From Ruegeria aquimaris (lineage in GTDB: Bacteria; Pseudomonadota; Alphaproteobacteria; Rhodobacterales; Rhodobacteraceae): 61,201 bases of DNA. Below are positions 6,471-34,591 of this stretch, one piece after another. The DNA is taken from positions 1 through 61,201 of the forward strand of contig NZ_JAOWLB010000024.1 in assembly GCF_025751555.1 (NCBI RefSeq), written 5' to 3'. The stretch's first letter is position 1. Each line of letters starts with the position of its first letter. The position numbers were made by a program, and so were the translations under genes. Under the pieces are notes generated by a model, which was given only the letters and a program-made list of their open reading frames with translations, ran no database searches and was not told the DNA's origin.

Positions 6471-6477
6471 ACTACTC

Positions 6478-6501
6478 CGGGCGCCGCGATAGCGGCGCCC
6501 G
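6478..6501 (+). terminator. Intercistronic hairpin between livK and livF
   Basis: CGGGCGCCGC and GCGGCGCCCG pair perfectly over ten GC-rich base pairs around the tetraloop GATA, beginning seven bases after the livK stop. No T run follows, so complete termination is unlikely. It more plausibly protects the livK message from 3' exonucleases or causes partial termination before livF. Confidence 0.75.
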
Positions 6502-6524
6502 TCCTGATCCTAAGCCCGGGCAAT

Positions 6525-9249: not shown

Positions 9250-9362
9250 ATCAATCTCCAGCTCTTTTGTTTTCCACGTGCGGGTCCGCCCGAGTGCAGC
9301 GCAAATCGCCGCAAAAGACAAGGCGAAAAACCAATAATATGTATAATTCTCAGGAGCTTAGA

Positions 9363-12681: not shown

Positions 12682-13875
12682 TCAGCCGTCCTTATCGTTG
12701 ACGATCAACTCGGCATTTTCCGGCAACTCCGCGACCACGCCCACCGCGTCGGCGCGGATTCTGGCCTGCAGTTTGAAGGCCTCGGCGGCGGCCTCTTCGG
12801 CAGCGGCCGTGTCGGCACCCTCATCCAGCACCAGCGAAAGCCGGATCATGTCGCGGTCGTTCTCGCGCGTCACAACGGCCTGTGCAGACTTGGCGCCGGG
12901 TGTCGCGATCACGACTTCCTCGATCACGCGGGGATAAACGAAGATCTCGCGCACCTTCACTGCCGCGCCCACCCGGCCCTGCAACGCGGACAAGCGGCCG
13001 ACACTGCCATCTTCATTGCTTTCCAGAGCAAAGGCGCTGTCGCCGGTGCCGAACCGGATCATCGGCCAACTAGCATCGCGCGCAGTCACGACGACCTCGC
13101 CCGGCTGGCCGTGCGGCACTTGGTCACCGCTGACCGGATCGCAGATCTGCACCACGCGATCGGGATGCACCAGATACCCCTCGCCGCCATCCTCATAGGC
13201 CACAAGACCCAGATCGGCAGTCGCATAGGCGGCCCAGGTCGACACGCCGTACTCGGCTTCGATCCGGCGGCGCTTGGCCATCCAGTCGCCCATCTCTCCA
13301 CCAAGGAAAGCGGTCTTCACCTTCCAGGCGTCGCGGCCGTAGGTTTCGATCACCCTATCCGCCAGCGTCAGGAAGAAGGCTGTCGAGGCGCAGATAGAGG
13401 TCACGCCGGTCTCTACGATGATCTGTGCCTGAAGCTCGGTATTGCCCACGCCACCGGGAATAACAGTCGCCCCGACCGATTGTGCCGCTTCGTCAAACAA
13501 AAGCCCCGCCGGTACCAGGTGATACATCCAGGTGTTCAGGATGATGTCCCCTGCTCCAACGCCGGCGGCCTTGAACAGCAGGTCCAGGCCGTGCCCGCCG
13601 CCCGAAAGCGCCGGTTCGAAGATCGGGCCGGGTGAAACATAAATTCTTCCGACAGCCTTCATGTCCGTGGCCAGAAACCCGCCGAAGGGCGGGTTGTCAC
13701 GCTGGATTTTAAGAAGCTCTTCTTTCTTCATCACCGGCAGACGCGAAAGATCTGCCAAAGATGACACGTCTGCCGGATTGAACCCGGCAGACGTGAAACG
13801 TGATTTTAGGCCTGGGGCCTTTTCGGCTGCGGCAGCATAGGCTTGCGCTATGTCACGGTAGATATTCTTGGACAT
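12682..13875 (-). CDS. PaaK-like AMP-dependent synthetase family protein with degenerate P-loop
   Basis: The 397 residues resemble phenylacetate-CoA ligase family members. They share the overall length, a MKKEELL segment near residue 50, a YGxTE-like site reading AYATADLG, and an RFGTGD motif. Where PaaK has the ATP-binding loop SSGTTGxPT, this protein reads YVSPGPIFEPALSGGG, so nucleotide binding may be altered. It is the last gene of a six-gene minus-strand operon headed by a transglutaminase-fold protein. A ligase for an acid produced in the pathway is the simplest guess. GAGGAGG precedes the ATG. Confidence 0.72.
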   Translation of the reverse strand: MSKNIYRDIAQAYAAAAEKAPGLKSRFTSAGFNPADVSSLADLSRLPVMKKEELLKIQRDNPPFGGFLATDMKAVGRIYVSPGPIFEPALSGGGHGLDLLFKAAGVGAGDIILNTWMYHLVPAGLLFDEAAQSVGATVIPGGVGNTELQAQIIVETGVTSICASTAFFLTLADRVIETYGRDAWKVKTAFLGGEMGDWMAKRRRIEAEYGVSTWAAYATADLGLVAYEDGGEGYLVHPDRVVQICDPVSGDQVPHGQPGEVVVTARDASWPMIRFGTGDSAFALESNEDGSVGRLSALQGRVGAAVKVREIFVYPRVIEEVVIATPGAKSAQAVVTRENDRDMIRLSLVLDEGADTAAAEEAAAEAFKLQARIRADAVGVVAELPENAELIVNDKDG

Positions 13876-13902
13876 GACTATGCCTCCTCGGCCATTCGTG
13901 GA

Positions 13903-14712
13903 TTAAAGCGGGCAATCCTTACGGAAGTTCGGCGCGCGCTTCTCGCGGTGCGACAGCACGCCCTCCTTGACGTCTTCGCTCATGAAGCCCAGCATTTCCA
14001 GCGCGGTCGAAGCATCAAAGATCGGTCCGGCCTGGCGCAGCCAGTTATTGAGGGAGTACTTGGTCCAGCGGATTGCGCTTTGCGAGCCATTGGCCAGCTC
14101 AACCGCCGTATCCAGGGCAATCTGTTGCAGTTCATCGTCTTCGACACACATCGACACAAGGCCAATACGTTCGGCTTCTTCGCCGGACACCGGCTTGCAG
14201 GTCATCAGGTAATATTTCGCCTTCGCCATCGAGGTCAGCAACGGCCAGATGATCGCTGCAACGTCACCTGCGGCGACACCCAGGCGCGGGTGGCCATCGA
14301 CGATCTTGGCCCGTTTGGCTGCGATTGAGATGTCGGCCAGGATGCCCACGACAAGTCCTGCACCCGCTGCGGGGCCATTGATGGCCGAAATGATCGGCTT
14401 GTTGCAGTTGATGATGTTGTAGACGAGATCCTTGGCCTCTTTCCACGTCTTCATGATCTCGTGCGAATTACCGATCATGTTTTCGATCAAGCTGAAATCG
14501 CCGCCCGCCGAAAACGCTTTGCCGGCACCCGTTACGATCACGGCGTTGATGTCGGGGTCGCGGTCGATGTCGATCCACATATCCGTCATCTGAGTGTGCG
14601 TTTCGGCATCGACCGAGTTAAAGGTCTCGGGACGGTCGAACGTGATGCGCAGGACGCGATCCGCCGGGTAGTCGAATTTCAGCTTGTGGTATTTTGCATA
14701 GCGGTCCGACAT
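13903..14712 (-). CDS. Enoyl-CoA hydratase/isomerase (crotonase) family protein
   Basis: This crotonase-fold protein has 269 residues. Oxyanion segments AFSAGGDFS and [10 protein letters not shown] are clear. The region around the first catalytic Glu reads [11 protein letters not shown], with His in place of Glu144, and the Glu164 position appears to be Tyr ([12 protein letters not shown]). The same pair of changes is seen in the protein at 9363, so both may belong to a non-hydratase subgroup. The gene lies 27 bases from the dehydrogenase upstream and 27 from the PaaK-like gene downstream. GGAGG lies before the ATG. Confidence 0.85.
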
Positions 14713-14739
14713 GGGTCTTTTCCTCCGTAGGGTATGGGT

Positions 14740-15891
14740 TCAGCCAGGCAGTCCGAGGACGGCCTTGGACAGGATGTTGCGCTGGATCTCGTTCGATCCA
14801 CCGTAGATCGTGGTCGGTCTGGCCTTGTAGAAGCTGGCCAGGACATCGACACTGACATTGCCGACCTGAAGCGGGCCGATAGAGCCGCCATCGGGCCCGG
14901 CCGCCTCGATCATCAGTTCGGTGATGCGTTGGAAGCACTCGGTCACCCAGATCTTGAGCATCGAGACATCCGCGCCCAGCGTCTCGCCCCGCTTGAGCTG
15001 ATCCGCGAAACGCGCATAGAGTGCCGCGTGGTCCTCGACGTCAAGCGCGGCTTGCGCGAAACGATCACGGAACGCCGGATCGTCAAACGCTCCACGGCCC
15101 CGGGCGAAACTCTCAAGCTGACCCAAGGCATTCTGGGCAAGGTTCGGCGCACCGATGAAGATGCGTTCGAAACTCAGCAGCGCCTTGGCCATCGTCCAGC
15201 CCTTGTTCAGCTCACCCACGAGGTTCTCGCGCGGCGTGCGGGCATTGTCGAAGAAAACCTCGCAGAACTCGGTTTCACCAGACAAGGTTGTAATCGTCCG
15301 CACCTCGACGCCGGGCTGATCCATCGGCGCTAGCAGGAAACTTATACCTTGCTGCTTTTTCGGTGCGTCCGAATCCGTGCGCACAAGCATGAAGATGTGC
15401 GTGGCATCATGCGCCATGGTGGTCCAGATCTTCTGGCCATTGATGACGAAGTCGTCGCCGTCGAGCTCTGCGCGGGTACGCAGGTTGGCCAGATCGGATC
15501 CAGCCCCGGGCTCGGAATAGCCCTGACACCAGATGTCTTCGCAGCTGAGAATCCGCGGTAACCAATAGTCTTTTTGCGCCTGGGTGCCGAACTTGATGAT
15601 CAACGGGCCGACCATCTGCACGCCCATGTCGCGCCCGCGATTGACGCCCCAGCGTTGTTGCTCCTCATAAAAAATCAACAGCTTGGCGGCGTTCAAGCCC
15701 ATACCGCCATATTCGGCGGGCCATGCCGGGGCAACCCAACCCTTTGCGTGGAGCTTGCGGTGCCAATGCTCTATTTCCGCGAATTTCGGCCGATGCGGAA
15801 GGTGGCGCAGATTCTCAGGATATTCGGTCTCGAAGAATTCGCGGGCTTCCTTGCGGAACTCCGCATCACCCATGGCGTTCCAATCCGTCAT
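14740..15891 (-). CDS. Acyl-CoA dehydrogenase, probable alpha subunit of a heteromeric pair
   Basis: The 383 residues have typical acyl-CoA dehydrogenase features: CQGYSEPGAGSDLANL for FAD/substrate binding, KIWTTMAHDA, and the C-terminal IYGGSNEIQRNILSKAVLGL. The ATG at 15891 overlaps the stop of the next upstream dehydrogenase as ATGA. Such tightly coupled pairs, one with and one without a normal C-terminal active-site segment, are known from steroid side-chain enzymes that form alpha2beta2 tetramers (ChsE-type). The pair plus a MaoC protein just upstream gives a dehydrogenation-hydration unit. The substrate is unknown. Confidence 0.87.
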   Translation of the reverse strand: MTDWNAMGDAEFRKEAREFFETEYPENLRHLPHRPKFAEIEHWHRKLHAKGWVAPAWPAEYGGMGLNAAKLLIFYEEQQRWGVNRGRDMGVQMVGPLIIKFGTQAQKDYWLPRILSCEDIWCQGYSEPGAGSDLANLRTRAELDGDDFVINGQKIWTTMAHDATHIFMLVRTDSDAPKKQQGISFLLAPMDQPGVEVRTITTLSGETEFCEVFFDNARTPRENLVGELNKGWTMAKALLSFERIFIGAPNLAQNALGQLESFARGRGAFDDPAFRDRFAQAALDVEDHAALYARFADQLKRGETLGADVSMLKIWVTECFQRITELMIEAAGPDGGSIGPLQVGNVSVDVLASFYKARPTTIYGGSNEIQRNILSKAVLGLPG

Positions 15892-17012
15892 TGTGCGGCT
15901 CCCTCCCCTTCGCGTGCGTCGAACCAAAGCCGTCTGTGATAAGCGTCGTCACCCAACCAGGCTGACAGAACCAGTGCCCGGTTCAGGTAAAGCCCGATGT
16001 CGAACTCGTCAGTATAGCCGACCGCCCCATGCAGCTGGATCGCATCGCGCGTGATTTTCTTGGCTGTTGTCACCGCGCGTGCCTTGGCCCGGCTGGCAAG
16101 CCGCGCCCGCACCTTAGGATCGGATTCGCTGTCCATAAGAGCCAGGGCTTCGCGCACCCCGGCCTGCGCGACCTCGCATGTCACATGCAGATCAACGGCA
16201 CGGTGCTGAATGACCTGGAACGACCCGATGGGCTTGTCGAATTGCTCTCGGGTCTTGATGTACTCCAGCGCAGTCTCGAAGGCGCGCTCGCTCAGACCGA
16301 CAAGTTCGGCGGCGGCAAGCGCTGCTGTATCATTGACTGCCTCATCAAGCGCGTCCGGGACCGCAACACCGCCAGCCATTTCCTCGGCCGGGGTTCCCGC
16401 AAAGGAAAGCTCGCCCATTGTGCTGCCGTCGGCCTGTGTGAGCTTTTCGACGGAAAGCCCGTCTGCTCCGGCCTCTACCATGACCAGAACCGGGCCGGTG
16501 TTTCCCTTCGCCAGAACAAGGAAACCCTGCGCTTCGGCCGCGCCGACAACCCAAGCCTTGTTGCCGGTCAGCTTGCCGTCCGCATAGCGGCAATTCTCCT
16601 CGGCGGGCCCGCCATTCGGGCCGCGTTCCTGCCAAGCCGTGGCAAGAACTGTATCGCCCCCAATGAGCCGTCCGATCATGTCGTGATCCGGACAAAGGCG
16701 ACGCAGCAGGCCGAGGCTCAACCCGACAGTGGCCACCACAGGCTCCGGGGCAAGGACCCGGCCGACCTCCTCGGCGATGACGCCGCAGGCGGCCAAGCCC
16801 ATGCCCAGCCCGCCGTTTTCCTCGGGCACGGCGACACCGAAAACTCCAGCTTCCGCAAGTTCCCGGATCATTTCGCCATCCCATCCGCCGCCGGAATCGC
16901 GCAGCTTTCTGGATCGACCAACGCCGCCGGCGCGGTCAAACAAGGTGCGAACGCTTTCGCGCAGCAAGCGTAGTTCTTCCTGATTTTCTGATTCCATGTC
17001 AGTCTGTGTCAT
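15888..17012 (-). CDS. Acyl-CoA dehydrogenase, probable beta subunit of a heteromeric pair
   Basis: This protein (374 residues) belongs to the acyl-CoA dehydrogenase fold but is divergent. The middle region lacks the family TEPxxGSD motif (it reads ATAWQERGPNGG), and the C terminus keeps QLHGAVGYTDEFDIGLYLNRAL yet lacks a YEGT/YGGT motif. This matches the non-catalytic or half-site partner in heteromeric enzymes. Its stop overlaps the next dehydrogenase start (ATGA) and its ATG at 17012 overlaps the MaoC gene by 14 bases. An internal ATG at 16997 would remove that overlap; neither start has a strong ribosome site. Confidence 0.83.
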   Translation of the reverse strand: MTQTDMESENQEELRLLRESVRTLFDRAGGVGRSRKLRDSGGGWDGEMIRELAEAGVFGVAVPEENGGLGMGLAACGVIAEEVGRVLAPEPVVATVGLSLGLLRRLCPDHDMIGRLIGGDTVLATAWQERGPNGGPAEENCRYADGKLTGNKAWVVGAAEAQGFLVLAKGNTGPVLVMVEAGADGLSVEKLTQADGSTMGELSFAGTPAEEMAGGVAVPDALDEAVNDTAALAAAELVGLSERAFETALEYIKTREQFDKPIGSFQVIQHRAVDLHVTCEVAQAGVREALALMDSESDPKVRARLASRAKARAVTTAKKITRDAIQLHGAVGYTDEFDIGLYLNRALVLSAWLGDDAYHRRLWFDAREGEGAAQ

Positions 17013-17448
17013 TGTGCTTTCGTTGAATCATCACGGGAGTGTCCGTGGAAAAGACGATCTCTCCCTTGGGGTTCCTGGCAGTAAGTGAATAGTGCATGAC
17101 ACCCCTGTCCGATTTGCTCCGGGAAGGGGTGACCGAGTTCACGGTCATTTCGATGTCCAAGGGTTCATTCGGACGCACAGGCCTCAACCAGCGCAGATTG
17201 TCGAACCCAATGCCTCCGATATTGGCGACATCGACCATCAATTCGGCCATGATGGGCTTGAATACTTCAAGCATGGTCTGAAACCCGGAGGCGATAAGGC
17301 CTCCATGTATACCCGCCGCATAGTCTTCGTCGGTGTGCAGCCGCTGCGGATCCCACTCAAGGGCGAATGCCTTTATGGATTCGGTACTCATTGGCGCGCT
17401 GGTGAAGCGAAAGACCTGCCCTGGGTGAAAATCTTCCAGATACCTCAA
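16999..17448 (-). CDS. MaoC family hot-dog dehydratase
   Basis: This small hot-dog-fold protein of 149 residues has the MaoC-like site EWDPQRLHTDEDYAAG, with Asp33 and His38 as the likely catalytic pair, and GGLIASGFQT next to it. It probably hydrates 2-enoyl-CoAs. The start is TTG at 17448, overlapping the upstream stop as TTGA. GGAG lies seven bases before it, and the first ATG (codon 20) would remove the fold's first strand. It lies directly upstream of the dehydrogenase pair, whose product it could take. Confidence 0.82.
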   Translation of the reverse strand: MRYLEDFHPGQVFRFTSAPMSTESIKAFALEWDPQRLHTDEDYAAGIHGGLIASGFQTMLEVFKPIMAELMVDVANIGGIGFDNLRWLRPVRPNEPLDIEMTVNSVTPSRSKSDRGVMHYSLTARNPKGEIVFSTDTPVMIQRKHNDTD

Positions 17449-18164
17449 GAGGCAGCTCCATTCGAGAATTTGGGATCGTAGCCTGTAGAGCCCCCCGCAA
17501 TCCGAACACGATTGAATTCCTCAAGTTTCGGGTATGTTTCCTTGAAGGCCTTCAGGAATTCCTTCATCGGCGCATCGAAGAAAAGCCCACGGTCATTCAC
17601 ATATTCCATGTGCCGTTGATCTTTTTCGTCAAACTCATGAAAAAGTGCATCGTGATACCCGTCAAAAACCAATGGCTTGACGCCGAAGCGCTCGCACAGC
17701 TCGATGTTGAATGCCGGTGTAACCTTGTAGGTTTCGCTGCCCAGCCAAAGCTGGACGTAGCCGTGATAGATGAACAGATCGGTACCCATTAGCTCTTGCA
17801 GCTTGGGGGTGTTCAGGTGGTTGCGCACATCGGCAAATCCGAGGGCCGCCGGAATGCCCGCAGCCCGCAGGCAAGCCGCCAGAAGGATTGCCTTGGGGAC
17901 GCAGAACGCCGCCTCTGCCCCAGCGATCCGGCTGGCGCGGTAGGAATCTTCATCCAAGGCAAAACAATAGGGGTCATATCGAATGTCGTCCCGAACCGCC
18001 TCGAACAGGCGGATGGCCTTGTCACGCGGGCTGGCGTCGACGGGCAATTCGCGCAACGCAGAAGACGCGAATTGCTGCACTTCAAGGCTGTCGCTTTCGA
18101 CAAAGTGCGATGGCATCACGTAACGCTCTGCTTCGGCTGGCAGGTCATCCCTAGACTGCGCCAT
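17445..18164 (-). CDS. Transglutaminase-like superfamily protein
   Basis: The 239 residues include a transglutaminase core (about 45-150). Cys88 in AFCVPKAILLAACLRAAG heads the long helix as in the papain-like fold, and His134 lies in IYHGYVQLWL. The third triad position appears to be Asn or absent (KVTPAFN). It might be a hydrolase or amide/thioester-processing enzyme; the function is not known. The start at 18164 is chosen over the upstream ATG at 18191, which lies inside the operator, because GGAGG sits just before it. It is the first gene of the operon driven from 18185-18225, ahead of the MaoC and dehydrogenase genes. Confidence 0.78.
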   Translation of the reverse strand: MAQSRDDLPAEAERYVMPSHFVESDSLEVQQFASSALRELPVDASPRDKAIRLFEAVRDDIRYDPYCFALDEDSYRASRIAGAEAAFCVPKAILLAACLRAAGIPAALGFADVRNHLNTPKLQELMGTDLFIYHGYVQLWLGSETYKVTPAFNIELCERFGVKPLVFDGYHDALFHEFDEKDQRHMEYVNDRGLFFDAPMKEFLKAFKETYPKLEEFNRVRIAGGSTGYDPKFSNGAAS

Positions 18165-18184
18165 CGACTCCTCCATTTTATTTT

Positions 18185-18225
18185 CTAACATTTGTTAGAT
18201 TAATGTCTGTCACCATTCGCGTCAA
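18185..18225 (-). promoter_or_regulatory. Promoter with operator site 2 (CTAAC-N4-GTTAG), transglutaminase operon
   Basis: Read on the minus strand there is TTGACG (18220-18225), a 17-base spacer and TAATCT (18197-18202). The inverted repeat at 18185-18198 overlaps the end of this -10 and covers the likely start of transcription. The ATG lies 20 bases further on. This is the clearest sigma-70-like promoter among the six operator sites and supports repression by steric block. Confidence 0.72.
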
Positions 18226-18231
18226 CAGAAT

Positions 18232-19368
18232 TTATTGTGTGTCTGGTTGCTCAGCACCATAGTCCTCATTGCTCTCTCCTAGAGAAGCAGCCCTCCCTAC
18301 TGTCTTTCGGGAAGAGCGGAATTCTGGCGCGATCGGCAGCGGCAGAGACTGCACTTCCTTACCCGCAATATTCAGTTTCCGGTCAAATACCCCGCGGGCA
18401 GCAAAATTTGGGTCAACCGAGGCTTCGGCCGGCGTTTTCACAACGGTGCAGCAACAATCGGCTGCCGCCAGCAATGGCTCCCAATGTGTCGAGGGTTTGC
18501 TTCCAAGGCGCCGCCCAACCTCGGCACTGCAGGCTTCCGGATCGCTCCAATCGTCACGCAACTCCGGAGGCTGACCGATAACATTACAAAACGCCTGCCA
18601 GAATTTTTCTTCAAGCGCCCCGACGGCGATTTGCCGACCGTCTGCTGCGGTATACAGGCGATAGCGCGCCAGCCCGCCTGTCAGCCGGCTTCCACCGCTT
18701 TCAATGTTCCTGCCAGAAACAACACCTTCGGCATGCGCCCAATATGCGAATGCGAAAGCGCCTTCCGACATGGCAATATCCAGATGAACGCCCTGCCCGC
18801 TTTTTTGCCGCGCCATCAAGGCAAGCAGTATATTCACCACTGCGGGGTAGGTTCCGCCTCCGATATCAGCGACAAGACCAAAGGGCATCGTCGGGTGGTC
18901 ATCGGGGCCACGGCTCAGTGACAGAATGCCCGCGTCGCCCACGTAGTTCAGATCATGACCGGCCACGGCGGCCTTCGGACCCGTTTGACCGTAGCCGGTG
19001 ATTGAACAATAGATGATACCCGGATTGATTTCGCGCACCGCATCATATCCCAGGCCAAGCCGATCCATGACGCCTGGGCGAAACTGCTCTACAATAACGT
19101 CCGCTTTTTCCAGCAACGGGCGCAAAACAGCCTTGGCGCTTTCGGACTTCAGGTCGATGGCAACCGATCTTTTCCCCTGGTTCAACACGGCAAACCCAAT
19201 GCTTTCGCCATCTATTTTTGGCTCGGTCAGGCGCGCGTCCTCTCCCGTGACGGGGCGCTCGAATTTTATCACCTCGGCTCCGGCCTCGGCCAGCATGAGC
19301 GTGGCCATCGGCCCCGGAAGCAGGGTGCTGAAGTCCAGCACCAGGATATTCTCGAGTGGCTGAACCAT
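18232..19368 (-). CDS. Alpha-methylacyl-CoA racemase (AMACR/MCR type)
   Basis: This 378-residue CaiB-family protein carries the strongest racemase signature in the window: AGHDLNY (His138) and GLVADIGGGTY (Asp168), again 30 residues apart as for His126/Asp156 of MCR. AMACR proteins read AGHDINY and LLADFAGGG at these places. It would epimerise 2-methylacyl-CoAs in branched-chain beta-oxidation. The start at 19368 is supported by GAGGTGACAGCG; an ATG at 19401 would overlap the MaoC gene. It is the last gene of an operon with a DUF35 protein, an Ltp-like protein and hydratase 2. Confidence 0.85.
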   Translation of the reverse strand: MVQPLENILVLDFSTLLPGPMATLMLAEAGAEVIKFERPVTGEDARLTEPKIDGESIGFAVLNQGKRSVAIDLKSESAKAVLRPLLEKADVIVEQFRPGVMDRLGLGYDAVREINPGIIYCSITGYGQTGPKAAVAGHDLNYVGDAGILSLSRGPDDHPTMPFGLVADIGGGTYPAVVNILLALMARQKSGQGVHLDIAMSEGAFAFAYWAHAEGVVSGRNIESGGSRLTGGLARYRLYTAADGRQIAVGALEEKFWQAFCNVIGQPPELRDDWSDPEACSAEVGRRLGSKPSTHWEPLLAAADCCCTVVKTPAEASVDPNFAARGVFDRKLNIAGKEVQSLPLPIAPEFRSSRKTVGRAASLGESNEDYGAEQPDTQ

Positions 19369-19378
19369 CGCTGTCACC

Positions 19379-20236
19379 TCATGCCAAGCGGGCGGCGCCA
19401 TTGTTCAGTACGACGACGCCCCGTTGGGGAATAGAGGCGCGGAAACGGGCCTCGCCGGCCTCTTCCCAAATCTCGAACCGCACTGTCTCCCCGGGATAGA
19501 CCGGAGCTGAAAACCGAACATCCAGCCCGACCAGACGTGCGGCATCATAATCCAGCAGGGTCTTGAGAATCGCTCTGGCCGCCAGACCATAAGTCGCCAG
19601 CCCGTGAAGGATAGGCCGGTCGAACCCGACCGACCGCGCCACATCCGGATCGGCATGCAAAGGATTGTAGTCGCCGCTAAGCCGATAGATCAGTGCCTGT
19701 CGCGGAAGCGTTTCGATATCACAGATGTGGTCCGGTTCCCGCTCTGGCAGAACCGCAGGCGCCGGACCGGGCCTGTTCTCACCTCCGAAGCCGCCATCAC
19801 CCCGGCAAAAAGCCGACATCGCGGCCCGCGCCAGTTTTTCACCGCTGTCCGCGTCAAAAATCTCGCGGCTTTGGTAAATCACCGCGCCTTTACCCTCACC
19901 CTTGTCGGACATGAAGTCGATTTTTGTGCGCCCGACGATATTGCCCTTCACAGGCAGCGGTTTGTAGATATCCAGCCATTGCTCGCCGTGCAGAACCTTT
20001 TGCCAGTTCACGCCGGTTTTGGGATTGCGCAGCCAAAAGCCCGGATAGCCCATCGTGACCGCCATCGAGGGAACCGCCTTCAGACCATCCTCATAGACAA
20101 AGGCAAGTTCTTTCTTGTCGGCCGGATCCTCGCCGAACCCCAAGCCGAGCGCGTACAGGATGGTATCCCGCTCGGTCAGTGTCTGTTGGATCTCCTCGAA
20201 ATCCCAGCTTGAAAGAGCTTCAAAATCCAATGGCAT
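19379..20236 (-). CDS. Hydratase 2-type MaoC domain dehydratase
   Basis: This double hot-dog protein of 285 residues resembles the hydratase-2 half of peroxisomal multifunctional enzyme 2. The second half holds the full R-hydratase motif YRLSGDYNPLHADP (about 184-197), with Asp189 and His194 as the catalytic residues. It would hydrate 2-enoyl-CoA to the (3R)-hydroxyacyl-CoA. It lies between the Ltp-like gene and the racemase gene. In the animal peroxisome, racemase, hydratase 2 and SCP-x act in sequence on branched chains, and the same enzyme types meet in this operon and nearby. Confidence 0.87.
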   Translation of the reverse strand: MPLDFEALSSWDFEEIQQTLTERDTILYALGLGFGEDPADKKELAFVYEDGLKAVPSMAVTMGYPGFWLRNPKTGVNWQKVLHGEQWLDIYKPLPVKGNIVGRTKIDFMSDKGEGKGAVIYQSREIFDADSGEKLARAAMSAFCRGDGGFGGENRPGPAPAVLPEREPDHICDIETLPRQALIYRLSGDYNPLHADPDVARSVGFDRPILHGLATYGLAARAILKTLLDYDAARLVGLDVRFSAPVYPGETVRFEIWEEAGEARFRASIPQRGVVVLNNGAARLA

Positions 20237-20260
20237 GTTGTTTTCTCCCGTTGACCGCCG

Positions 20261-21412
20261 TCAAAGCGCGTTTTGTGACCCCAAAATCGCCGTAACCTGG
20301 CTGGACAGAACACCGCCATTGCCATGGGCCAGGGCCAGGTCGATATTGTCGAGTTGCAAGCCCGGGGCATCACCGCGAATCTGGCGCGCGGCTTCGATCA
20401 CCGTGAAAATCCCGTACATTCCGGGATGCACGCAGGACAACCCCCCGCCATTCGTGTTCACCGGCAAAACACCACCGGGTGCGATGCGTCCACCCTCCAC
20501 GAATGCCCCGCCGTCGCCCTTGGCACAGAAACCGAGGTCTTCGAGAAACAGGATGGTGTTGATAGTGAAGGCATCGTAAAGCTCGACCGCCTGGATATCC
20601 TTGGGTGAGACTCCAGCCGCGGCAAAGGCTCGACGGCCCGAATCGCGGGCGGCGGTCACGGTGAAATCCTGCATCTGCGAAATTTGGCGGTGCGAACTTT
20701 CCGCTGCGCTGCCCAGCACATAGACCGGTGGCTTGGGGAAATCCTTTGCCCGTTCTGCACGGACCATAACGATCGCACCGCCCCCATCGGTCACCAGACA
20801 GCAATCCCGCACGGTGAGCGGATCACCGACCATGCGTGCGCCCAACACATCCTCGCGGCTGAGCGGCCCGCGCTCGAAAGCTTCGGGATTGTGTTGCGCC
20901 CAGGCCCGTGCGGCCACGGCCACATCGGCCAGCTGCTCGCGGGTGGTGCCATATTCATGCATGTGCCGGGCCGCCGCCATCGCATAGGCGGAAATCGGAT
21001 AGCGCGGGTTGTACGGCGCCTCATAGGCCGGCGGGCGCGAGGCCGTCACCAGCTTGCCCGACGCCGTGCGTTGGTTGGAGCCGTAGACGATCAGAGCGAC
21101 ATCGCACAATCCGGCCTCGAGCGCCATCGTTGCGGATGTCAGGTAGTTCACAAAGGATGATCCGCCCGTCATGGTTCCGTCGAGGAACCGGGGCTGAATA
21201 CCGAGGTATTCGGCCGCCATCAGGGCAGGCATGCTGTCTTCCATCATGGTGCAGAACAGGCCATCCACGTCAGACAGCCTCAGCCCGGCATCCTTCAGCG
21301 CCGCAAGCGCGGACTGCGCCATGACATCGTAAGCCGTAAACCCGTGCGCTTCGCCGAACCCGGCGTGGCCGGTGCCGACAATAGCGGATTTTCCTCGCAG
21401 GTTGTTTGTCAT
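20261..21412 (-). CDS. Thiolase-fold Ltp-like protein lacking the nucleophilic cysteine; probable DUF35-dependent aldolase
   Basis: The 383 residues have the thiolase fold of the lipid-transfer branch. Where thiolases carry the nucleophilic Cys, this one reads DGTMTGGSS (about 78-86). It keeps ELYDAFTINTILFLEDLGFC and a late HPGMYG. This pattern matches Ltp-type aldolases of steroid side-chain breakdown, which split a 3-hydroxyacyl-CoA by retro-aldol reaction and need a DUF35 partner. The DUF35 gene is directly upstream with a three-base gap. Ordinary thiolysis is unlikely. GGAGG lies before the ATG. Confidence 0.82.
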   Translation of the reverse strand: MTNNLRGKSAIVGTGHAGFGEAHGFTAYDVMAQSALAALKDAGLRLSDVDGLFCTMMEDSMPALMAAEYLGIQPRFLDGTMTGGSSFVNYLTSATMALEAGLCDVALIVYGSNQRTASGKLVTASRPPAYEAPYNPRYPISAYAMAAARHMHEYGTTREQLADVAVAARAWAQHNPEAFERGPLSREDVLGARMVGDPLTVRDCCLVTDGGGAIVMVRAERAKDFPKPPVYVLGSAAESSHRQISQMQDFTVTAARDSGRRAFAAAGVSPKDIQAVELYDAFTINTILFLEDLGFCAKGDGGAFVEGGRIAPGGVLPVNTNGGGLSCVHPGMYGIFTVIEAARQIRGDAPGLQLDNIDLALAHGNGGVLSSQVTAILGSQNAL

Positions 21413-21415
21413 GGT

Positions 21416-21793
21416 TTAAACCTCCGAGGGCTTGAAGAATACGGCAGGGGTGCCATCGGCATCGGCCACAAAAGCGGTAACTGCCATATCGATCTTGACT
21501 CCGTCGGGGGCGATCCCGTCGACCCGGCTCATCATTCGCACACCTTCCTCCAGTTCGACCATGCACACGTTGTAATCGCCACCGCGCTCGGGCTTTCGAC
21601 GCACAACCGTGGTGGTATGGACCCGGCCTTTTCCGCTGGCCCGGTGCCAGGAAATTGCGTCGCCATGACAATGCGGGCACATGACCCTGGGAAAGAAGTG
21701 GTAGCGCCCACAGCCGTCGCATTTTGGAAGCAGAATTTCCTGATTTACGAGTCCGTTCCTGAAAATTGCGTCAGGCCCCTTGCCATCCAACAT
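21416..21793 (-). CDS. DUF35 OB-fold / zinc-ribbon protein, partner of the Ltp-like enzyme
   Basis: This small protein has 125 residues. A rubredoxin-like zinc ribbon is formed by CDGC (Cys25, Cys28) and CPHC (Cys39, Cys42), followed by an OB-fold acyl-CoA-associated domain (about 50-120). DUF35 proteins dock onto thiolase-fold enzymes and are required for Ltp2-type aldolases in steroid degraders. It is the first gene of the minus-strand operon, about 60 bases from operator site 3, and lies back to back with the CoA-transferase gene at 21905. Confidence 0.87.
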   Translation of the reverse strand: MLDGKGPDAIFRNGLVNQEILLPKCDGCGRYHFFPRVMCPHCHGDAISWHRASGKGRVHTTTVVRRKPERGGDYNVCMVELEEGVRMMSRVDGIAPDGVKIDMAVTAFVADADGTPAVFFKPSEV

Positions 21794-21840
21794 TTAAATC
21801 ATCCCTTCTGCTGTTCGTCTCCGGCTGAGCACCAAACGAG

Positions 21841-21869
21841 TTGATTACGTTTCTAACGACTGTTAGAAA
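21841..21869 (+). promoter_or_regulatory. Operator site 3 in the divergent DUF35 / CoA-transferase intergenic region
   Basis: The inverted repeat at 21853-21866 is CTAACGACTGTTAG, extending to eight-base arms (TTTCTAAC and GTTAGAAA). For the plus strand, TTGATT (21841-21846) and TAGAAA (21864-21869) are 17 bases apart with the operator between, as at sites 1 and 5. On the minus strand TTGACT (complement of 21871-21876) lies on the other side. One bound dimer could control both operons. Confidence 0.68.
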
Positions 21870-21904
21870 AAGTCAAGCCCGAAGGATCAAACAGCGAGAA
21901 CATA

Positions 21905-23056
21905 ATGACAGGAACAAATTCAGGTCCGCTTTCCGGCAAGCTCGTCATCGCACTTGAACAGGCGGTGGCGGCACCCTTTTGCTCTTCGCGGCTGGCCGAT
22001 GCCGGGGCGCGCGTGATCAAGATCGAGCGCAAGGGCACGGGCGATTTCGCGCGCGCCTACGATACCGCGGCGGGCGGCGAAAGCGCCTATTTCACATGGC
22101 TGAACCGGGGCAAGGAATCGGTCGCGCTTGATATCAAAGCCGACGAAGACCGGGAAATTCTCTTGAACATGCTTGAAACCGCAGATGTGTTCATTCAGAA
22201 CCTGCTGCCCGGAGCTCTCACCAAACTCGGGCTCGATTCGGCCACACTGCGCGAAAAGTTTCCGCGCCTGGTGACCTGTGACATCACGGGCTACGGTGAA
22301 GACGGCCCTATGCGGAGCGCCAAGGCCTATGACTTGCTGGTTCAATGCGAAAGTGGTCTGGCTTCGGTAACCGGTACGCCTGATGGGCCGGGCCGAGTTG
22401 GTGTTTCGGTCTGCGACATTGCGACAGGAATGACGGCCCATGCCGCAATCTGCGAGGCCCTCATCGAGCGAAGCCACACAGGCAAGGGCAGCGGTGTCTC
22501 AGTGGCGATGTTCGACGTGATGGCCGATTGGATGGCGGTTCCGTTGCTTTACTACGATTACCTGGGCAAACCGACGCCGCGCGTCGGGCTGAACCACACG
22601 GTCATCTGCCCATATGGCGCCTATCAATGCAAAGATGATGAGCTTGTGGTTATCACCGTCCAGCATTCCGGTGAGTGGGCCCGGTTTTGCGAACACATCC
22701 TTGGCGACGCGACACTGGCGAGCGATCCGCGGTTTCATGACAACACGGCGCGAATAAACAACAAACCCGCTCTAGAATCGCTCATCAAGGCTGAGTTCGC
22801 CTCTCATGACCGTTCTGAGATGCTGAAGCGGCTCGACGCGGCGGGCATTGCATTCGGGTCTGTGAATGACGTGGCCTCCCTGTCCGCACATCCCCAGCTC
22901 GACCGTTCCGCCGTCTATACACAATCTGGCCAAATCAACGTCCCTATGCCGCCGATTCGGCGAAGCGGGGGCATTTCGACCCTGGGCCCCAGCCCCGCAT
23001 TTGATGCGGATGGTCGCGCCATTCGTGCCGAGTTCATCGCCGGCCCCAAAGATTAG
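21905..23056 (+). CDS. CaiB/BaiF (class III) CoA transferase
   Basis: This 383-residue family III CoA transferase would move CoA from a donor thioester to an acid. The catalytic Asp is expected at 171 (SVCDIATGM), aligning with Asp169 of formyl-CoA transferase. The racemase His motif is absent; the site reads AYDLLVQCESG. It begins a two-gene operon with another transferase 14 bases on, under operator site 3. CoA transfer between pathway intermediates would save ATP compared with the synthetases in the window. The substrate is unknown. Confidence 0.84.
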   Translation: MTGTNSGPLSGKLVIALEQAVAAPFCSSRLADAGARVIKIERKGTGDFARAYDTAAGGESAYFTWLNRGKESVALDIKADEDREILLNMLETADVFIQNLLPGALTKLGLDSATLREKFPRLVTCDITGYGEDGPMRSAKAYDLLVQCESGLASVTGTPDGPGRVGVSVCDIATGMTAHAAICEALIERSHTGKGSGVSVAMFDVMADWMAVPLLYYDYLGKPTPRVGLNHTVICPYGAYQCKDDELVVITVQHSGEWARFCEHILGDATLASDPRFHDNTARINNKPALESLIKAEFASHDRSEMLKRLDAAGIAFGSVNDVASLSAHPQLDRSAVYTQSGQINVPMPPIRRSGGISTLGPSPAFDADGRAIRAEFIAGPKD

Positions 23057-23070
23057 GATACCCCCCATAA

Positions 23071-24237
23071 ATGACTACTGCACAGAAACCGGCAATTCTC
23101 GATGGCATTCGGGTTATCGACCTGACATCGGTGGTCTTTGGCCCCCTGGCTACACAAATGCTGGGCGACCTCGGAGCCGACGTGATCAAGGTGGAAAGCC
23201 CGGAGGGCGACCTTTTGCGCCAGGTTCAACCATCGCGCCATAACCTGATGGGCGCGGCCTTTCTGGGGACCAACCGCAATAAACGCAGTGTTGTCCTGGA
23301 TCTCAAGACAGAAGCCGACCTAGACCAGCTGCGCCGATTGTTGTCCGATGCGGACGTGATGATTTCGAGTATCCGGCCTGCAGCGCTTGCCCGTCTGTCA
23401 CTCGACCCCGAAACTCTGCGGCGCGAAAATCCGAATCTGATCACGGTTTCGGCAACCGGATTCGGGCAGGATGGGCCTTACGCGGCGAAACCCGCCTTTG
23501 ACGACATTGTTCAGTCTGTGTCGGGCCTTGCAAGCCTGACGACTCTTCGAGATCCCGAAGCAAGTCCCGAGTATGCTCCGACCATACTTGCCGATAAACT
23601 GGGCGGTGTGACGGCGGCCTATGCCGTCATGGCGGCCCTTTTTCATCGTGAACGCACGGGCGAGGCTCAGCATGTCGAGGTGCCGATGTTTGAAACTCTT
23701 ACAGCGTTTCTTCTTGCCGAACATTTGGATGGTGCAACTTTCGAAGAAAACCCGCAGGATTTCGGCTATGCCCGCATGCTGGTGCCCCATCGTCGTCCGG
23801 TAAAGACCGCAAACGGGTTCATCACGATCCTCCCTTACACCAACTCGCAATGGGCGCGGTTCTTCAAGGTGGTCGGGCGCGATGACATGGTCGACCACCC
23901 CTGGGTCACCGATATGGATGTGCGTAGCCGCAACATCGGCGCGGTCTACGATCTCGTGGCGCAGATCGCTCTGACCCGCACAACCGAAGAATGGTTGGAT
24001 CTGATGGAACAGGCCGACGTCCCCGCCATGCCGGTCCGCAGTCTGTCGGACCTTCCAGGCGACCCGCATCTTGCCGCAACCGGGTTCTTCCAGAAAATCG
24101 AGCACCCAACCGAGGGTCCCCTCTGGACAACGCGCCCGCCGGTGCGCTTTTCGGCCACCCCTGCAAGGCACGACTTCCGGCCTGCTCCCTGCTTGGGTCA
24201 GCATAACAACGAAATCCTTGAGTCACGCAAAGAGTAA
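23071..24237 (+). CDS. CaiB/BaiF (class III) CoA transferase
   Basis: This second transferase in the operon has 388 residues. Its catalytic Asp is predicted at 175 in TILADKLGG, and the region that in racemases reads GHD is AFDDIVQSVSG, so it is a transferase rather than a racemase. It is clearly divergent from its neighbour. Two class III genes in tandem may encode subunits of one heteromeric enzyme, as in succinyl-CoA:benzylsuccinate CoA-transferase, or two specificities. It converges on an acyl-CoA dehydrogenase with 22 bases between stops. Confidence 0.84.
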   Translation: MTTAQKPAILDGIRVIDLTSVVFGPLATQMLGDLGADVIKVESPEGDLLRQVQPSRHNLMGAAFLGTNRNKRSVVLDLKTEADLDQLRRLLSDADVMISSIRPAALARLSLDPETLRRENPNLITVSATGFGQDGPYAAKPAFDDIVQSVSGLASLTTLRDPEASPEYAPTILADKLGGVTAAYAVMAALFHRERTGEAQHVEVPMFETLTAFLLAEHLDGATFEENPQDFGYARMLVPHRRPVKTANGFITILPYTNSQWARFFKVVGRDDMVDHPWVTDMDVRSRNIGAVYDLVAQIALTRTTEEWLDLMEQADVPAMPVRSLSDLPGDPHLAATGFFQKIEHPTEGPLWTTRPPVRFSATPARHDFRPAPCLGQHNNEILESRKE

Positions 24238-24259: not shown

Positions 24260-25417
24260 TCAGATATCCATGGAACGGGCAATAAGTTCTTTCATGATCT
24301 CGTTGGTGCCGCCATAGATCATCTGGACGCGGCTATCGGCATAAAGCCGGGCGATCGGGAACTCCATCATGAAGCCATACCCGCCATGCAGTTGCAGGCA
24401 TTCGTGCATGACCTCATTTTGGGTCTGGCTGCCCCACCATTTCGCCATCGAAGCAGTGGCAGGATCAAGCTGACCCGCTTCAAGTTTGGTAATTCCATCG
24501 TTAATGAAACTACGCAGCAGTTCCGCCTTGGTTTTACATTCGGCCAGCTTGAAACGCGTGTTCTGAAAATCCATGATACGGTTCCCGAACGCTTTGCGAT
24601 CCTGGACGTATTTTACCGTCTCGGCGATAGCGAAGTCGATGAATCCAAGCGCGGTGACACCGATCATCAAACGTTCCCAAGGCAATTGTTTCATCAGTTG
24701 ATAAAACCCTTGCCCCTCTTCGGTGCCAAGCAGGTTGCTGGTCGGGATGCGCACATCCTCGAAAAACAGTTCCGCGGTGTCCGACCCCTTCATCCCCAGC
24801 TTCTTCAGGTTCCGGCCGCGGCGGAATCCTTCGGCATCTTCGGTTTCCAGTACGATCAGCGACACGCCCTTGGCGCCCGCGCTGCGGTCGGTCTTGGCCA
24901 CGATCACGATGAGGTCTGCTGTGTGACCATTGGTAATGAAAATCTTGGAACCGTTGATCTTGTAATGGTTGCCATCCTTTTCCGCATAGGTCTGGACGCT
25001 CTGCAAATCTGACCCCGTCCCCGGTTCGGTCATGGCAATTGCCGCTACGCTTTCACCGCTGATCAGCCGGGGCAGCCATTTCTTTTTCTGCTCCTCGCTG
25101 CCGTAGGCATCAAGGTAATGTATCACAATGGACTGAATACCATAGCCCCAACCGGTGTCACCGGTGCGGCCCTGTTCGTAGACCGTGATTGCATCAAAGC
25201 CAATGCCCCCGCCGAACCCGCCGTAGTCTTCGGCGACCGAACCGCCCATGACGCCCTGTTCCCCAACCGTGCGCCAGAACTCGCGGTCAACGATCCCTTG
25301 CTCGGCCCATTTTTCAACATTCGGTGCCATTTCGGCGTCAAAAAGCTTGCGGGTACTGTCGGCAAACATCCGGTGCTCATCTGCGGCCCAGGCCGAACTC
25401 GTCGTTATCAAGGACAT
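24260..25417 (-). CDS. Acyl-CoA dehydrogenase, long-chain/isovaleryl-like
   Basis: The 385 residues have the full family pattern: AIAMTEPGTGSDLQSV for FAD and substrate binding, KIFITNGHTADLIIV-like strand, QLHGGYGFMMEFPIARLYADSR, and IYGGTNEIMKELIAR at the end. The Gly in YGGTNEI is typical of long-chain and isovaleryl-CoA dehydrogenases, whose catalytic Glu lies elsewhere. Branched or long acyl-CoAs are therefore likely substrates. The start is ATG 25417, after AAAGGA; an ATG at 25462 would fall inside the operator. It is transcribed alone from operator site 4. Confidence 0.88.
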   Translation of the reverse strand: MSLITTSSAWAADEHRMFADSTRKLFDAEMAPNVEKWAEQGIVDREFWRTVGEQGVMGGSVAEDYGGFGGGIGFDAITVYEQGRTGDTGWGYGIQSIVIHYLDAYGSEEQKKKWLPRLISGESVAAIAMTEPGTGSDLQSVQTYAEKDGNHYKINGSKIFITNGHTADLIVIVAKTDRSAGAKGVSLIVLETEDAEGFRRGRNLKKLGMKGSDTAELFFEDVRIPTSNLLGTEEGQGFYQLMKQLPWERLMIGVTALGFIDFAIAETVKYVQDRKAFGNRIMDFQNTRFKLAECKTKAELLRSFINDGITKLEAGQLDPATASMAKWWGSQTQNEVMHECLQLHGGYGFMMEFPIARLYADSRVQMIYGGTNEIMKELIARSMDI

Positions 25418-25455
25418 GTAGAATCCTTTCATCATGATTGGCATTTCCAAAAAAC

Positions 25456-25469
25456 CTAACATATATTAG
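25456..25469 (-). promoter_or_regulatory. Operator site 4 (one mismatch) upstream of the acyl-CoA dehydrogenase
   Basis: CTAACATATATTAG has the same arms and spacing as the other sites except for A instead of G at the first base of the right arm. It lies 38 bases upstream of the ATG at 25417. A -10-like TAATAT overlaps it on the minus strand, without a convincing -35. It marks the left edge of the alkane block. Confidence 0.58.
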
Positions 25470-25530: not shown

Positions 25531-26706
25531 CTAATCGGGCGAAGCCCTTGAAGAAATTGCTTTCGCAAGAGCGCTCTGACGGTTGGGAAGGTTCACAAGC
25601 TCAGCGGCAACAAGACGGTCGCCGCTTTTCAGGTGCACCTCCAGGGATGGTGACCCTTGTGACGCATCGCTTCGCACCAGATCGTAACCGGCCGCTATTC
25701 CAACGGCCTGCACTTTCATGTCCTTCAGATCGGACCAGAACCGTGGCGGAACAGGAATCGGGCGTTCTTTGTTGCAAATGGCGGCTGCCGCAATCTGAGC
25801 CTGCGTGGTTGCATTGTGGACTGTTTCGACGCGCATTTTTCCAGGCGCGAACGGGTTGTCACTGTTGGCACAATCCCCGATGGCAAATATATCGGGGTCT
25901 GATGTTCGCATGTCTTGGTCGACGCATATACCTTCATCACATTCTATGCCTGCTGCCTCGGCAAGCTCCACATTCGGAGTGGCGCCGATACCCGCAAACA
26001 CCAGATCGGCCTTCACCTGGGTTCCATCTTCAAGATTGACCGAAGAAATACGGTGGTCAACGGTGTCGAACCCCTCAATCTTCTTATTGAAAAGGAATTT
26101 CACCCCTGCATCCGTTAGCTGCTGAGTGACGAAGTTGGTTGTTGCGGGCGAAGCCACACGGGCCATCGCACGCGCGGCGGCCTCTACAACCGTGACCGAC
26201 TTTCCAAGATCAACCGCGGCCGAGGCGACTTCGAGCCCGATGACGCCGGCTCCGATGATGACGACGTCGCGGCAGGCGGTACTGATCAAGGCCTGGCGCA
26301 GTCCCGTTGAATCGCCGAGGTCTCGAAGATAGTGGATACCTTTCAGGTCCGAACCCTTCAAATCAAGACGGCGAGGCGAGGCGCCCAAAGCAAGAATCAA
26401 GGTGTCGAATTTCGTCGTTTTCCCATCTGAAAATCGAATTCTCCTTTTTTTCCTGTCGATCTGGGAGACTTTCCGCGCGCGCATGAGTTCAATGCGATTG
26501 TCCTCGTAAAAGGAAAGCGACCGCAGGAGGGTCGGTTTGGGCCTGTCGGCGCCAGACAACCAGACCTTAGAAAGTGGTGGGCGCTGATAGGGGAGCGCCG
26601 CTTCCTCTCCGACAAGTTTTATGGCGCCTTCATATCCATTCTTTCGCAACGCGGCCGCAGCGTTTGTTCCGGCAACTCCGTTACCGATGATCACAGTTGT
26701 TTTCAT
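25531..26706 (-). CDS. alkT: Rubredoxin-NAD(+) reductase (AlkT-like)
   Basis: This FAD flavoprotein of 391 residues passes electrons from NADH to rubredoxin, which feeds the alkane hydroxylase. An N-terminal FAD motif GNGVAG (8-13), a second dinucleotide motif GAGVIG (152-157) for NADH, and a third-position DIFAIGDCA motif for FAD are all present. GDRLVAAELVNLPNRQ-like C-terminal sequence is usual for this family. It lies 31 bases after alkS on the same strand, as in the alkST unit of P. putida GPo1, and divergent from alkB. GGAGAAGGG precedes the ATG. Confidence 0.88.
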   Translation of the reverse strand: MKTTVIIGNGVAGTNAAAALRKNGYEGAIKLVGEEAALPYQRPPLSKVWLSGADRPKPTLLRSLSFYEDNRIELMRARKVSQIDRKKRRIRFSDGKTTKFDTLILALGASPRRLDLKGSDLKGIHYLRDLGDSTGLRQALISTACRDVVIIGAGVIGLEVASAAVDLGKSVTVVEAAARAMARVASPATTNFVTQQLTDAGVKFLFNKKIEGFDTVDHRISSVNLEDGTQVKADLVFAGIGATPNVELAEAAGIECDEGICVDQDMRTSDPDIFAIGDCANSDNPFAPGKMRVETVHNATTQAQIAAAAICNKERPIPVPPRFWSDLKDMKVQAVGIAAGYDLVRSDASQGSPSLEVHLKSGDRLVAAELVNLPNRQSALAKAISSRASPD

Positions 26707-26737
26707 GCTATCCCTTCTCCATGGATGTGCTGGGCGA

Positions 26738-29350: not shown

Positions 29351-29416
29351 CCTTCCCTCCCCGAAGTTATGCGTCGCTAGCGTCCTATCTACCTACCCTT
29401 ACCTGATAGACTTCAA

Positions 29417-29436
29417 AACTACACGAACGTGTAGTT
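29417..29436. promoter_or_regulatory. Perfect inverted repeat in the alkS-alkB intergenic region
   Basis: AACTACACG and CGTGTAGTT form nine-base arms around AA. The repeat lies 67 bases from the alkS start and about 126 from the alkB start. A perfect 20-base dyad in a divergent promoter is a good candidate for AlkS or another regulator's binding. It is unlike the CTAAC-N4-GTTAG operator. Confidence 0.55.
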
Positions 29437-29457
29437 GTTCAGTTGTGTGCTGACGGA

Positions 29458-29475
29458 CATTGGTGTCGTCCAATG
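29458..29475. promoter_or_regulatory. Second inverted repeat upstream of alkB
   Basis: CATTGG and CCAATG are six-base arms separated by six bases, 22 bases downstream of the first dyad and about 88 bases before the alkB start. It could be a second regulator site or a small hairpin in the 5' leader of the alkB message. Confidence 0.35.
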
Positions 29476-29562
29476 CCTACCGGCTGGAACGAACGACGCC
29501 AAGCGTATGAGCTTCTGACCACCGCAGGGCGTGACAATGGCCTTCAAGGGAGGAACAGACTG

Positions 29563-30774: not shown

Positions 30775-30797
30775 AGACCACTCATGGTGCGTTAAAC

Positions 30798-30830
30798 GTC
30801 AGGGTTGGCCCTGCTGGGGCTAACCCTGAC
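30798..30830 (+). terminator. Strong intercistronic hairpin between alkB and the rubredoxin gene
   Basis: GTCAGGGTTGGCCC (30798-30811) pairs with GGGCTAACCCTGAC (30817-30830) over 14 positions with one G-T pair, around a five-base loop. No T run follows, so it is more likely an attenuator, processing site or stabiliser of the alkB message than a full terminator. Confidence 0.7.
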
Positions 30831-30946
30831 CCGCCAAACAGCGCCTTGCTCTCAGTCTAAGACAAGGCAGCACCAACAACCGACAGAAATACTGGTAAGA
30901 CGCGCGTGTTTGGCTGCCAAAGCACGCGTGCAAGGGAGGAATGAAA

Positions 30947-31408: not shown

Positions 31409-31418
31409 GAGATTGATC

Positions 31419-32864: not shown

Positions 32865-32895
32865 CAGCAGCCCAGAACCAATAGGGAGAGAAGAA

Positions 32896-34524: not shown

Positions 34525-34591
34525 GCGCGGTGATGGAAAACAGGTAAAAACAAACCAATGCCATGGGTGCGACGGAGCTTGTTGCAAATCT

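Follow-up and report, generated by a model that had tools for sequence, protein, structure and literature searches.

Which reactions are encoded by an operon in which a predicted 2-methylacyl-coenzyme A (CoA) racemase lies beside a hydratase 2, a thiolase-fold protein and a DUF35 protein? We addressed this question for an operon at positions 12682-21793 of a 61,201-nucleotide stretch of Ruegeria aquimaris DNA (G000:C16:1-61201; hereafter the window), part of a 5.04-Mb genome in 61 contigs. An initial annotation had likened these genes to the peroxisomal enzymes AMACR, hydratase 2 and SCPx and had proposed a bacterial route for methyl-branched isoprenoid or steroid-like chains. Our own reading, held with slightly better than even confidence, is that the operon supplies the racemase/aldolase part of a regulon, frequently plasmid-borne, for isoprenoid catabolism in marine Alphaproteobacteria.

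The operon and its thiolase-fold protein

The four genes that the initial annotation placed in one operon were confirmed in position, all on the minus strand. They form the promoter-proximal end of a longer minus-strand row of ten genes, running from 21793 to 12682 in this order:

21416-21793, minus strand: DUF35 protein (zinc ribbon and OB fold), partner of the aldolase-like protein; confirmed by Pfam OB_ChsH2_C and zf-ChsH2
20261-21412, minus strand: thiolase-fold protein, proposed aldolase; Gly83-Gly84-Ser85-Ser86, Tyr279-Asp-Ala-Phe, His329-Pro
19379-20236, minus strand: hydratase 2 (MaoC, MFE-2 type); MFE-2 N domain, motif and Protein Data Bank (PDB) match
18232-19401, minus strand: 2-methylacyl-CoA racemase-like family III protein; His138/Asp168/Glu253, numbered from the ATG at 19368
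17445-18191, minus strand: transglutaminase-like protein; Pfam Transglut_core, homologues starting at 18164
16999-17448, minus strand: small MaoC hydratase; Pfam MaoC_dehydratas
15888-17012, minus strand: acyl-CoA dehydrogenase, small-type partner; domain match
14740-15927, minus strand: acyl-CoA dehydrogenase, large-type partner; domain match
13903-14712, minus strand: crotonase/enoyl-CoA hydratase; PRK07327 subfamily, above cut-off
12682-13875, minus strand: PaaK-family protein; annotated homologues, and NCBIfam for one homologue, far below cut-off

Strand, spacing and conservation suggest that the row is a single operon. A Pfam search of the window's PaaK-family protein returned no match, and Pfam and domain searches of the operon proteins revealed no hydroxyacyl-CoA dehydrogenase between 12682 and 21793.

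For comparison, one genome scan yielded 308 relatives, of which the best 80 were kept as loci with 10-kb flanks, several of them short; residue counts in these loci refer to orthologues of at least 60% identity. The ten-gene order from DUF35 to PaaK recurs across the 80 loci. Additionally, a megablast of 13903-24237 against plasmids matched 38 records, from genera including Sulfitobacter, Roseovarius, Phaeobacter, Paracoccus and Roseibium; for 11 of the 38 the match spans at least 80% of the 10.3-kb query, with identities of 79.1-80.3%. Because of these plasmid matches and the recurring order, the cluster is not a chance assembly.

Alignment of the racemase with M. tuberculosis MCR spans residues 13-340, and the whole catalytic triad agrees: His138, Asp168 and Glu253 correspond to MCR His126, Asp156 and Glu241. 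His and Asp are present in 69/69 readable orthologues and Glu in 68/68. By alignment, then, the protein at 18232-19401 carries the catalytic residues of a putative 2-methylacyl-CoA racemase of the MCR/AMACR kind, and the MCR-like spacing of His138 and Asp168 claimed earlier holds, with numbering that fits an internal ATG at 19368. Equally sound was the assignment of the hydratase 2, for which G-D-x-N-P-x-H is the characteristic motif. The motif is kept in 74/74 orthologues, the MFE-2 N domain is present, and among PDB entries the protein is closest to peroxisomal multifunctional enzyme type 2 (E 4.8e-55). A candidate relative of the racemase on pUPO218, a plasmid of an ibuprofen degrader, was set aside: the homologue is 47% identical, and no thiolase or DUF35 is annotated among the 20 genes shown around it.

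The thiolase-fold protein has Gly83-Gly84-Ser85-Ser86 (GGSS) at the nucleophile position and no cysteine there, together with Tyr279-Asp-Ala-Phe (YDAF) and His329-Pro; all of these are invariant in 80/80 loci. Its top PDB match is 4u4e (366 bits), an uncharacterised protein named only Thiolase, followed by 9myr (nonspecific lipid-transfer protein, 190 bits) and 6ok1 (lipid-transfer protein, 183 bits). We take 9myr to be Sal because of its YDCY motif, and 6ok1 to be T. curvata Ltp2 because the aligned residues fit the numbering in PMC12329534. According to that paper, SCP2 thiolases have HDCF where the operon protein has YDAF, Sal has YDCY with a Tyr302/Cys304 pair, and Ltp2 has YDHF with Tyr294 and Tyr344. 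The operon protein fits none of the three. GGSS replaces the nucleophilic Cys of SCP2/SCPx in all 80 loci; the Sal tyrosine is kept while Ala281 replaces its Cys, again in 80/80; and Tyr279 aligns with Ltp2 Tyr294 while His329 occupies the position of Tyr344. Thus the Ltp-like description stands as to fold and Ltp2/Sal-type PDB matches, but the thiolase nucleophile is missing. A second DUF35/thiolase-fold pair, whose thiolase-fold member is ~64% identical to that of the operon, was seen in other clusters of the same organisms in two loci (L009 16329-17866 and L037 7826-9336).

Since the nucleophilic Cys is missing, the catalytic Tyr of Sal and Ltp2 is kept and the operon has no hydroxyacyl-CoA dehydrogenase, aldolytic cleavage, a retro-aldol step of the type known from the degradation of bile-acid and sterol side chains, appears likelier here than peroxisome-like thiolysis. 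In the latter case, which we judge unlikely, the racemase, dehydrogenases and hydratase 2 would act on 2-methylacyl-CoA, a short-chain dehydrogenase/reductase (SDR) from elsewhere in the regulon would oxidise the hydroxyl group, the Cys-bearing SCPx thiolase would make the cut, and the operon's thiolase-fold protein would do something else. The same island does contain SDR genes and a thiolase of this kind:

10168-11406, plus strand: SCPx-like thiolase with Cys at the nucleophile position; best match SCP2-thiolase type 1

The Cys and this match bear out the SCPx-like thiolase reported earlier, at a distance of 7-10 kb, and hydratase 2 has its closest match in the peroxisomal enzyme. However, thiolysis would need the dehydrogenase that the operon lacks, and the Cys-less protein and DUF35 occur together in 79 of the 80 loci (in L119 the DUF35 position lies beyond the contig end). 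No further thiolase was found in the annotated stretches, ~50 kb each, of Frigidibacter and Sulfitobacter BSw21498, although the gene tables of these plasmids have gaps. With an expected position at the edge of the 10-kb flanks, the SCPx gene was seen at 93-96% identity in at least 7 of the 80 loci. The peroxisomal analogy therefore fits the racemase and hydratase 2 better than it fits the operon's thiolase-fold protein (YDAF for HDCF) and its lack of a hydroxyacyl-CoA dehydrogenase, and it should be narrowed to the first two enzymes.

Breakdown of steroid or bile-acid side chains we regard as very improbable. Racemase, hydratase, DUF35 and a Sal/Ltp2-like protein do occur together here, and the PDB matches following 4u4e are the chains taken as the aldolases Sal and Ltp2. 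Against this, the catalytic motif YDAF/HP differs from Sal YDCY and Ltp2 YDHF, and the steroid-ring family KshA_C gave 0 matches in the genome, in a search of one Pfam family with no strong positive control (the sole responding control genome fell below the cut-off). The steroid-like part of the initial proposal thus found no support.

The operator and the tandem TetR gene

The divergent promoter of the operon (21793-21905) contains a perfect palindrome, TCTAAC-N4-GTTAGA, from which we read off a search pattern. In its 20-base form with up to 3 mismatches, the pattern occurs at 5 sites in the window, compared with 0.03 expected (no strand assigned):

21852-21867: exact, divergent promoter (pattern source)
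18184-18199: exact, upstream of the transglutaminase-like gene
50077-50092: exact, upstream of an SDR gene and before the end of an acyl-CoA dehydrogenase gene
52557-52572: exact, upstream of a CaiB gene (homologues start at 52519)
291-306: one mismatch, upstream of the first Liv-type ABC transporter operon

Genome-wide, there are 6 exact sites, the pattern source included: 4 in the window and 2 on contig C9, while a reversed control pattern has 2. Allowing one mismatch gave 11 sites (8 for the control), 10 of them in the window plus C9 and 1 in contig C1; the window contig and C9 make up 3.3% of the genome. The 80 loci were then scored within 200 bases before the DUF35 gene and from -150 to +30 of the transglutaminase-like start, wherever more than 170 bases of preceding sequence were available. 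The exact operator is present in 72/79 divergent promoters and in 69/72 upstream regions of the transglutaminase gene. No further exact copy occurs in the 1,439,748 bases of these loci, and eight rearranged palindromes gave 0 sites each across the same set. An internal promoter is suggested by the second operator, which precedes the transglutaminase-like gene. Most of the 80 loci retain this gene, with its own operator copy, as part of the operon.

On C9, one exact site (25736-25751) precedes the gene, starting at 25797, of a 454-amino-acid protein with two TetR_N domains:

5797-7161 of locus L026 (G000:C9): tandem TetR, a single chain with two TetR_N domains (Pfam)

The other exact site is flanked by a dehydrogenase gene and by a reductase gene whose relatives are named 2,4-dienoyl-CoA reductase. 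Sites with one mismatch were found in the divergent promoter of AtuA (32174) and close to a third set of carboxylase genes (44916, 46313). A Sulfitobacter BSw21498 plasmid has the same layout: both operon positions hold exact copies, and copies with one mismatch precede the tandem TetR, reductase and SDR genes. The candidate operator is probably bound by the tandem TetR encoded beside one of its copies. In a plasmid search at E 1e-60, the tandem TetR was found on 39 of 72,556 plasmids, and 38 of these also carry the racemase, itself present on 39.

Terpene-type genes and the weighing of the substrate

Contig C9 carries genes for AtuA, HMG-CoA lyase and biotin carboxylase/carboxyltransferase (Pfam), the third carboxylase set being recognised by similarity only. 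C9 thus has AtuA clustered with a biotin-dependent carboxylase, as in the Atu pathway; the window is tied to them by the operator and by synteny. Since these C9 genes are 87-97% identical to the stretch of a Phaeobacter sp. G2 plasmid that directly precedes the homologue of the window, C9 and the window are probably neighbours.

The two gene sets also travel together. Among the 72,556 plasmids, 37 carry AtuA at 80% identity or more and 39 carry the racemase at no less than 71%, with 36 carrying both; these counts come from the best 60 of 139 AtuA records, which include every one at 80% or above, and the best 60 of 76 racemase records, which include every one at 60% or above. In 15 plasmid records compared by eye, racemase and AtuA lie ~38-120 kb apart by the shorter way round the circle, so the genes stay together despite rearrangement. 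Among 78 genomes with the aldolase-like protein (two sets of 39, with L080 left out and L110 and L111 counted as one genome), 56 have an AtuA orthologue of at least 79% identity: 30/39, including one partial and one fragmented copy, and 26/39. Additionally, within an order-level set of 195 genomes (racemase threshold E 1e-80), full-length AtuA is present in 4 of the 5 racemase genomes compared with 20/195 overall (p 0.0004). The methyl-branched isoprenoid route initially suggested is supported by this co-occurrence on plasmids and in genomes, and by the operator shared with the AtuA, carboxylase and HMG-CoA lyase cluster.

Near the AtuA cluster, C9 also encodes a B12-type acyl-CoA mutase (39793-41478) that is 74% identical to one near the tandem TetR gene of Sulfitobacter BSw21498 (L121 833-2968), where the cobalamin-binding subunit is separate. 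In PDB searches the C9 mutase scored 370 bits with 2-hydroxyisobutyryl-CoA mutase and 336 bits with methylmalonyl-CoA mutase, and the L121 homologue exceeds the cut-off for the methylmalonyl-type domain model only. A C9 gene labelled "citryl-CoA lyase" was rejected as CitE, as Pfam shows a citrate synthase domain.

Several observations weigh against an isoprenoid regulon as we propose it. A C9 dehydrogenase scores 528 against a cut-off of 575 on the cyclohexanecarboxyl-CoA dehydrogenase model, and the operon dehydrogenase pair resembles pimeloyl-CoA dehydrogenase (pimC/pimD), also below cut-off; a cyclic or dicarboxylic substrate would therefore suit as well. For a cyclic terpenoid or alicyclic acid, the dehydrogenase pair and aldolase would strip a ring side chain in the manner of the igr-type steroid operon, and other enzymes of the island would open the ring. 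We consider this unlikely. The operon does have the same kinds of enzyme as ChsE1E2/ChsH1H2/Ltp2 as described in PMC12502768, and the two dehydrogenase likenesses point the same way. On the other hand, none of the six crotonases had a ring-opening name among its best 25 matches, and AtuA and HMG-CoA lyase indicate open-chain isoprenoids.

The remaining points concern the links among the genes. AtuA is missing from 22 of the 78 genomes (9/39 and 13/39) and is therefore dispensable to the racemase/aldolase module; 12 of the 13 in the second set have a divergent operon form, with DUF35 57-70% identical, while several AtuA-less genomes are metagenome bins that may be incomplete and some are drafts. 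On two of the racemase plasmids no AtuA reaches 80% identity, although one of the two retains the operator, tandem TetR, carboxylase and HMG-CoA lyase. Near-identical copies from P. pseudonitzschiae account for 19 of the 39 plasmids with the racemase. Transposase genes flank an isolated unit of the operon and CoA-transferase pair on a plasmid of Frigidibacter from oil-production water (L010 15318-32843), which at the thresholds used carries no AtuA and no tandem TetR. In L099, L104, L109 and L111 the operon neighbours are present with no racemase seen between them, hence the racemase is possibly an accessory component in certain lineages; L100 and L110 also show none, but these loci are short or end early. 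The genome's second AtuA lies on contig C33, where no operator copy was found. Carboxylase and HMG-CoA lyase alone could serve leucine, and NCBIfam gave no match diagnostic of the carboxylase substrate, such as one of the geranyl-CoA type, and none for AtuA. Finally, the probable junction of C9 and the window rests on synteny, and a structure prediction for the aldolase from 16 sequences reached a predicted local distance difference test score (pLDDT) of 33.7 and was not used.

Proposed pathway, known relatives and neighbouring genes

On the isoprenoid reading, the racemase would epimerise 2-methylacyl-CoA, the paired acyl-CoA dehydrogenases would desaturate it, and hydratase 2 would then hydrate the unsaturated product. 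The DUF35-bound thiolase-fold protein would make a retro-aldol cut to propionyl-CoA and an aldehyde, which would be oxidised and re-activated by a CoA ligase, putatively the PaaK-family protein of the operon. Beta-methyl positions would fall to the co-regulated AtuA, biotin carboxylase and HMG-CoA lyase, and both parts would be switched through a single palindromic operator to which the tandem TetR probably binds. More tentatively, and as a possibility we do not yet favour, the thiolase-fold protein may represent a third class of DUF35-bound aldolase with a Tyr279/His329 pair in place of the Tyr-Tyr of Ltp2 and the Tyr-Cys of Sal. This class would shorten alpha-methyl-branched isoprenoid acids by retro-aldol cleavage with an MCR-type racemase and hydratase 2, in alternation with Atu-type beta-methyl carboxylation under one tandem-TetR operator, on plasmids of marine bacteria, several from algal cultures.

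Benzylsuccinate (bbs) operons combine a DUF35/thiolase-fold pair with two family III CoA-transferases, an acyl-CoA dehydrogenase and a crotonase. The operon is similar in composition and PDB matches, but it lacks the SDR pair and nucleophilic Cys and adds a racemase and hydratase 2. With the peroxisomal AMACR/MFE-2/SCPx system it shares the racemase triad, the hydratase 2 motif and, in the island, an SCPx-like thiolase; it differs in having no hydroxyacyl-CoA dehydrogenase and in its own thiolase-fold protein without a nucleophile. Sal/Shy and Ltp2/ChsH2 likewise lack the nucleophilic Cys, have the YDxF catalytic Tyr and a DUF35 partner, and lie near paired acyl-CoA dehydrogenases and a MaoC hydratase. 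In contrast to them, the operon protein has Ala as third motif residue in place of Cys or His and, relative to Ltp2, an invariant His at the Tyr344 position, with no steroid-ring marker from the one family searched. Like the Atu and Liu pathways (PMC4847356), the regulon has AtuA, biotin-dependent carboxylases, hydratases, dehydrogenases, HMG-CoA lyase and a TetR-type regulator gene, but it adds the racemase, hydratase 2 and the DUF35 aldolase-like pair, which the accessible part of that paper does not mention for Atu.

The other features of the window are:

21905-23056, plus strand: family III CoA-transferase without the racemase His (AYD; motif, domain match)
23071-24237, plus strand: family III CoA-transferase without the racemase His (AFD; motif, domain match)
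8146-9333, minus strand: second family III protein with His/Asp racemase motif (AGHD and Asp)
24260-25462, minus strand: acyl-CoA dehydrogenase (domain match)
9363-10151, plus strand: enoyl-CoA hydratase (similarity)
11423-12589, plus strand: acyl-CoA dehydrogenase (similarity)
460-7322, plus strand: Liv-type ABC transporter and acyl-CoA synthetase, first set
41023-49153, minus strand: Liv-type ABC transporter and acyl-CoA synthetase, second set
49181-50050, minus strand: SDR oxidoreductase behind the 50077 operator
50142-52564, minus strand: acyl-CoA dehydrogenase and CaiB pair behind the 52557 operator

The divergent CaiB genes, with Tyr or Phe at the His position, are read as CoA-transferases. 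The protein at 8146-9333, earlier called a second racemase-type protein and lying 7-10 kb away, has the AGHD/Asp motif, but its PDB matches favour CoA-transferases (180 bits) over racemases (147 bits), so it may be of either type.

The island also contains an alk-type cassette (25531-36294) whose AlkB has Alkane 1-monooxygenase as best PDB match (E 4.9e-169). The cassette includes a two-domain rubredoxin open reading frame (30941-31408), a ferredoxin-reductase-type gene, an 870-amino-acid LuxR protein, an aldehyde dehydrogenase, a glucose-methanol-choline (GMC) oxidoreductase and a CoA ligase. As an entry step to the pathway it was rejected: no operator copy lies inside it, no AlkB match was found in the 80 loci with their 10-kb flanks, and AlkB is not annotated in the Phaeobacter sp. 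G2 stretch. We therefore treat it as a neighbour. After the island, 52708-56671 carries luciferase-like monooxygenase, glutathione S-transferase, NmrA-like, Luciferase-domain (PF17648) and LigB-domain genes.

Phytol, pristane and similar isoprenoid chains occur widely in the sea. Among the literature matches listed, judged by titles and abstract openings, no paper concerned an isoprenoid regulon in this bacterial group. Because the operator marks the same promoters in 72 loci, with no other copy in the surrounding 1.44 Mb, the hypothesis is directly testable by induction and binding assays. If it is true, a small enzyme family would gain a new catalytic variant in the aldolase-like protein.

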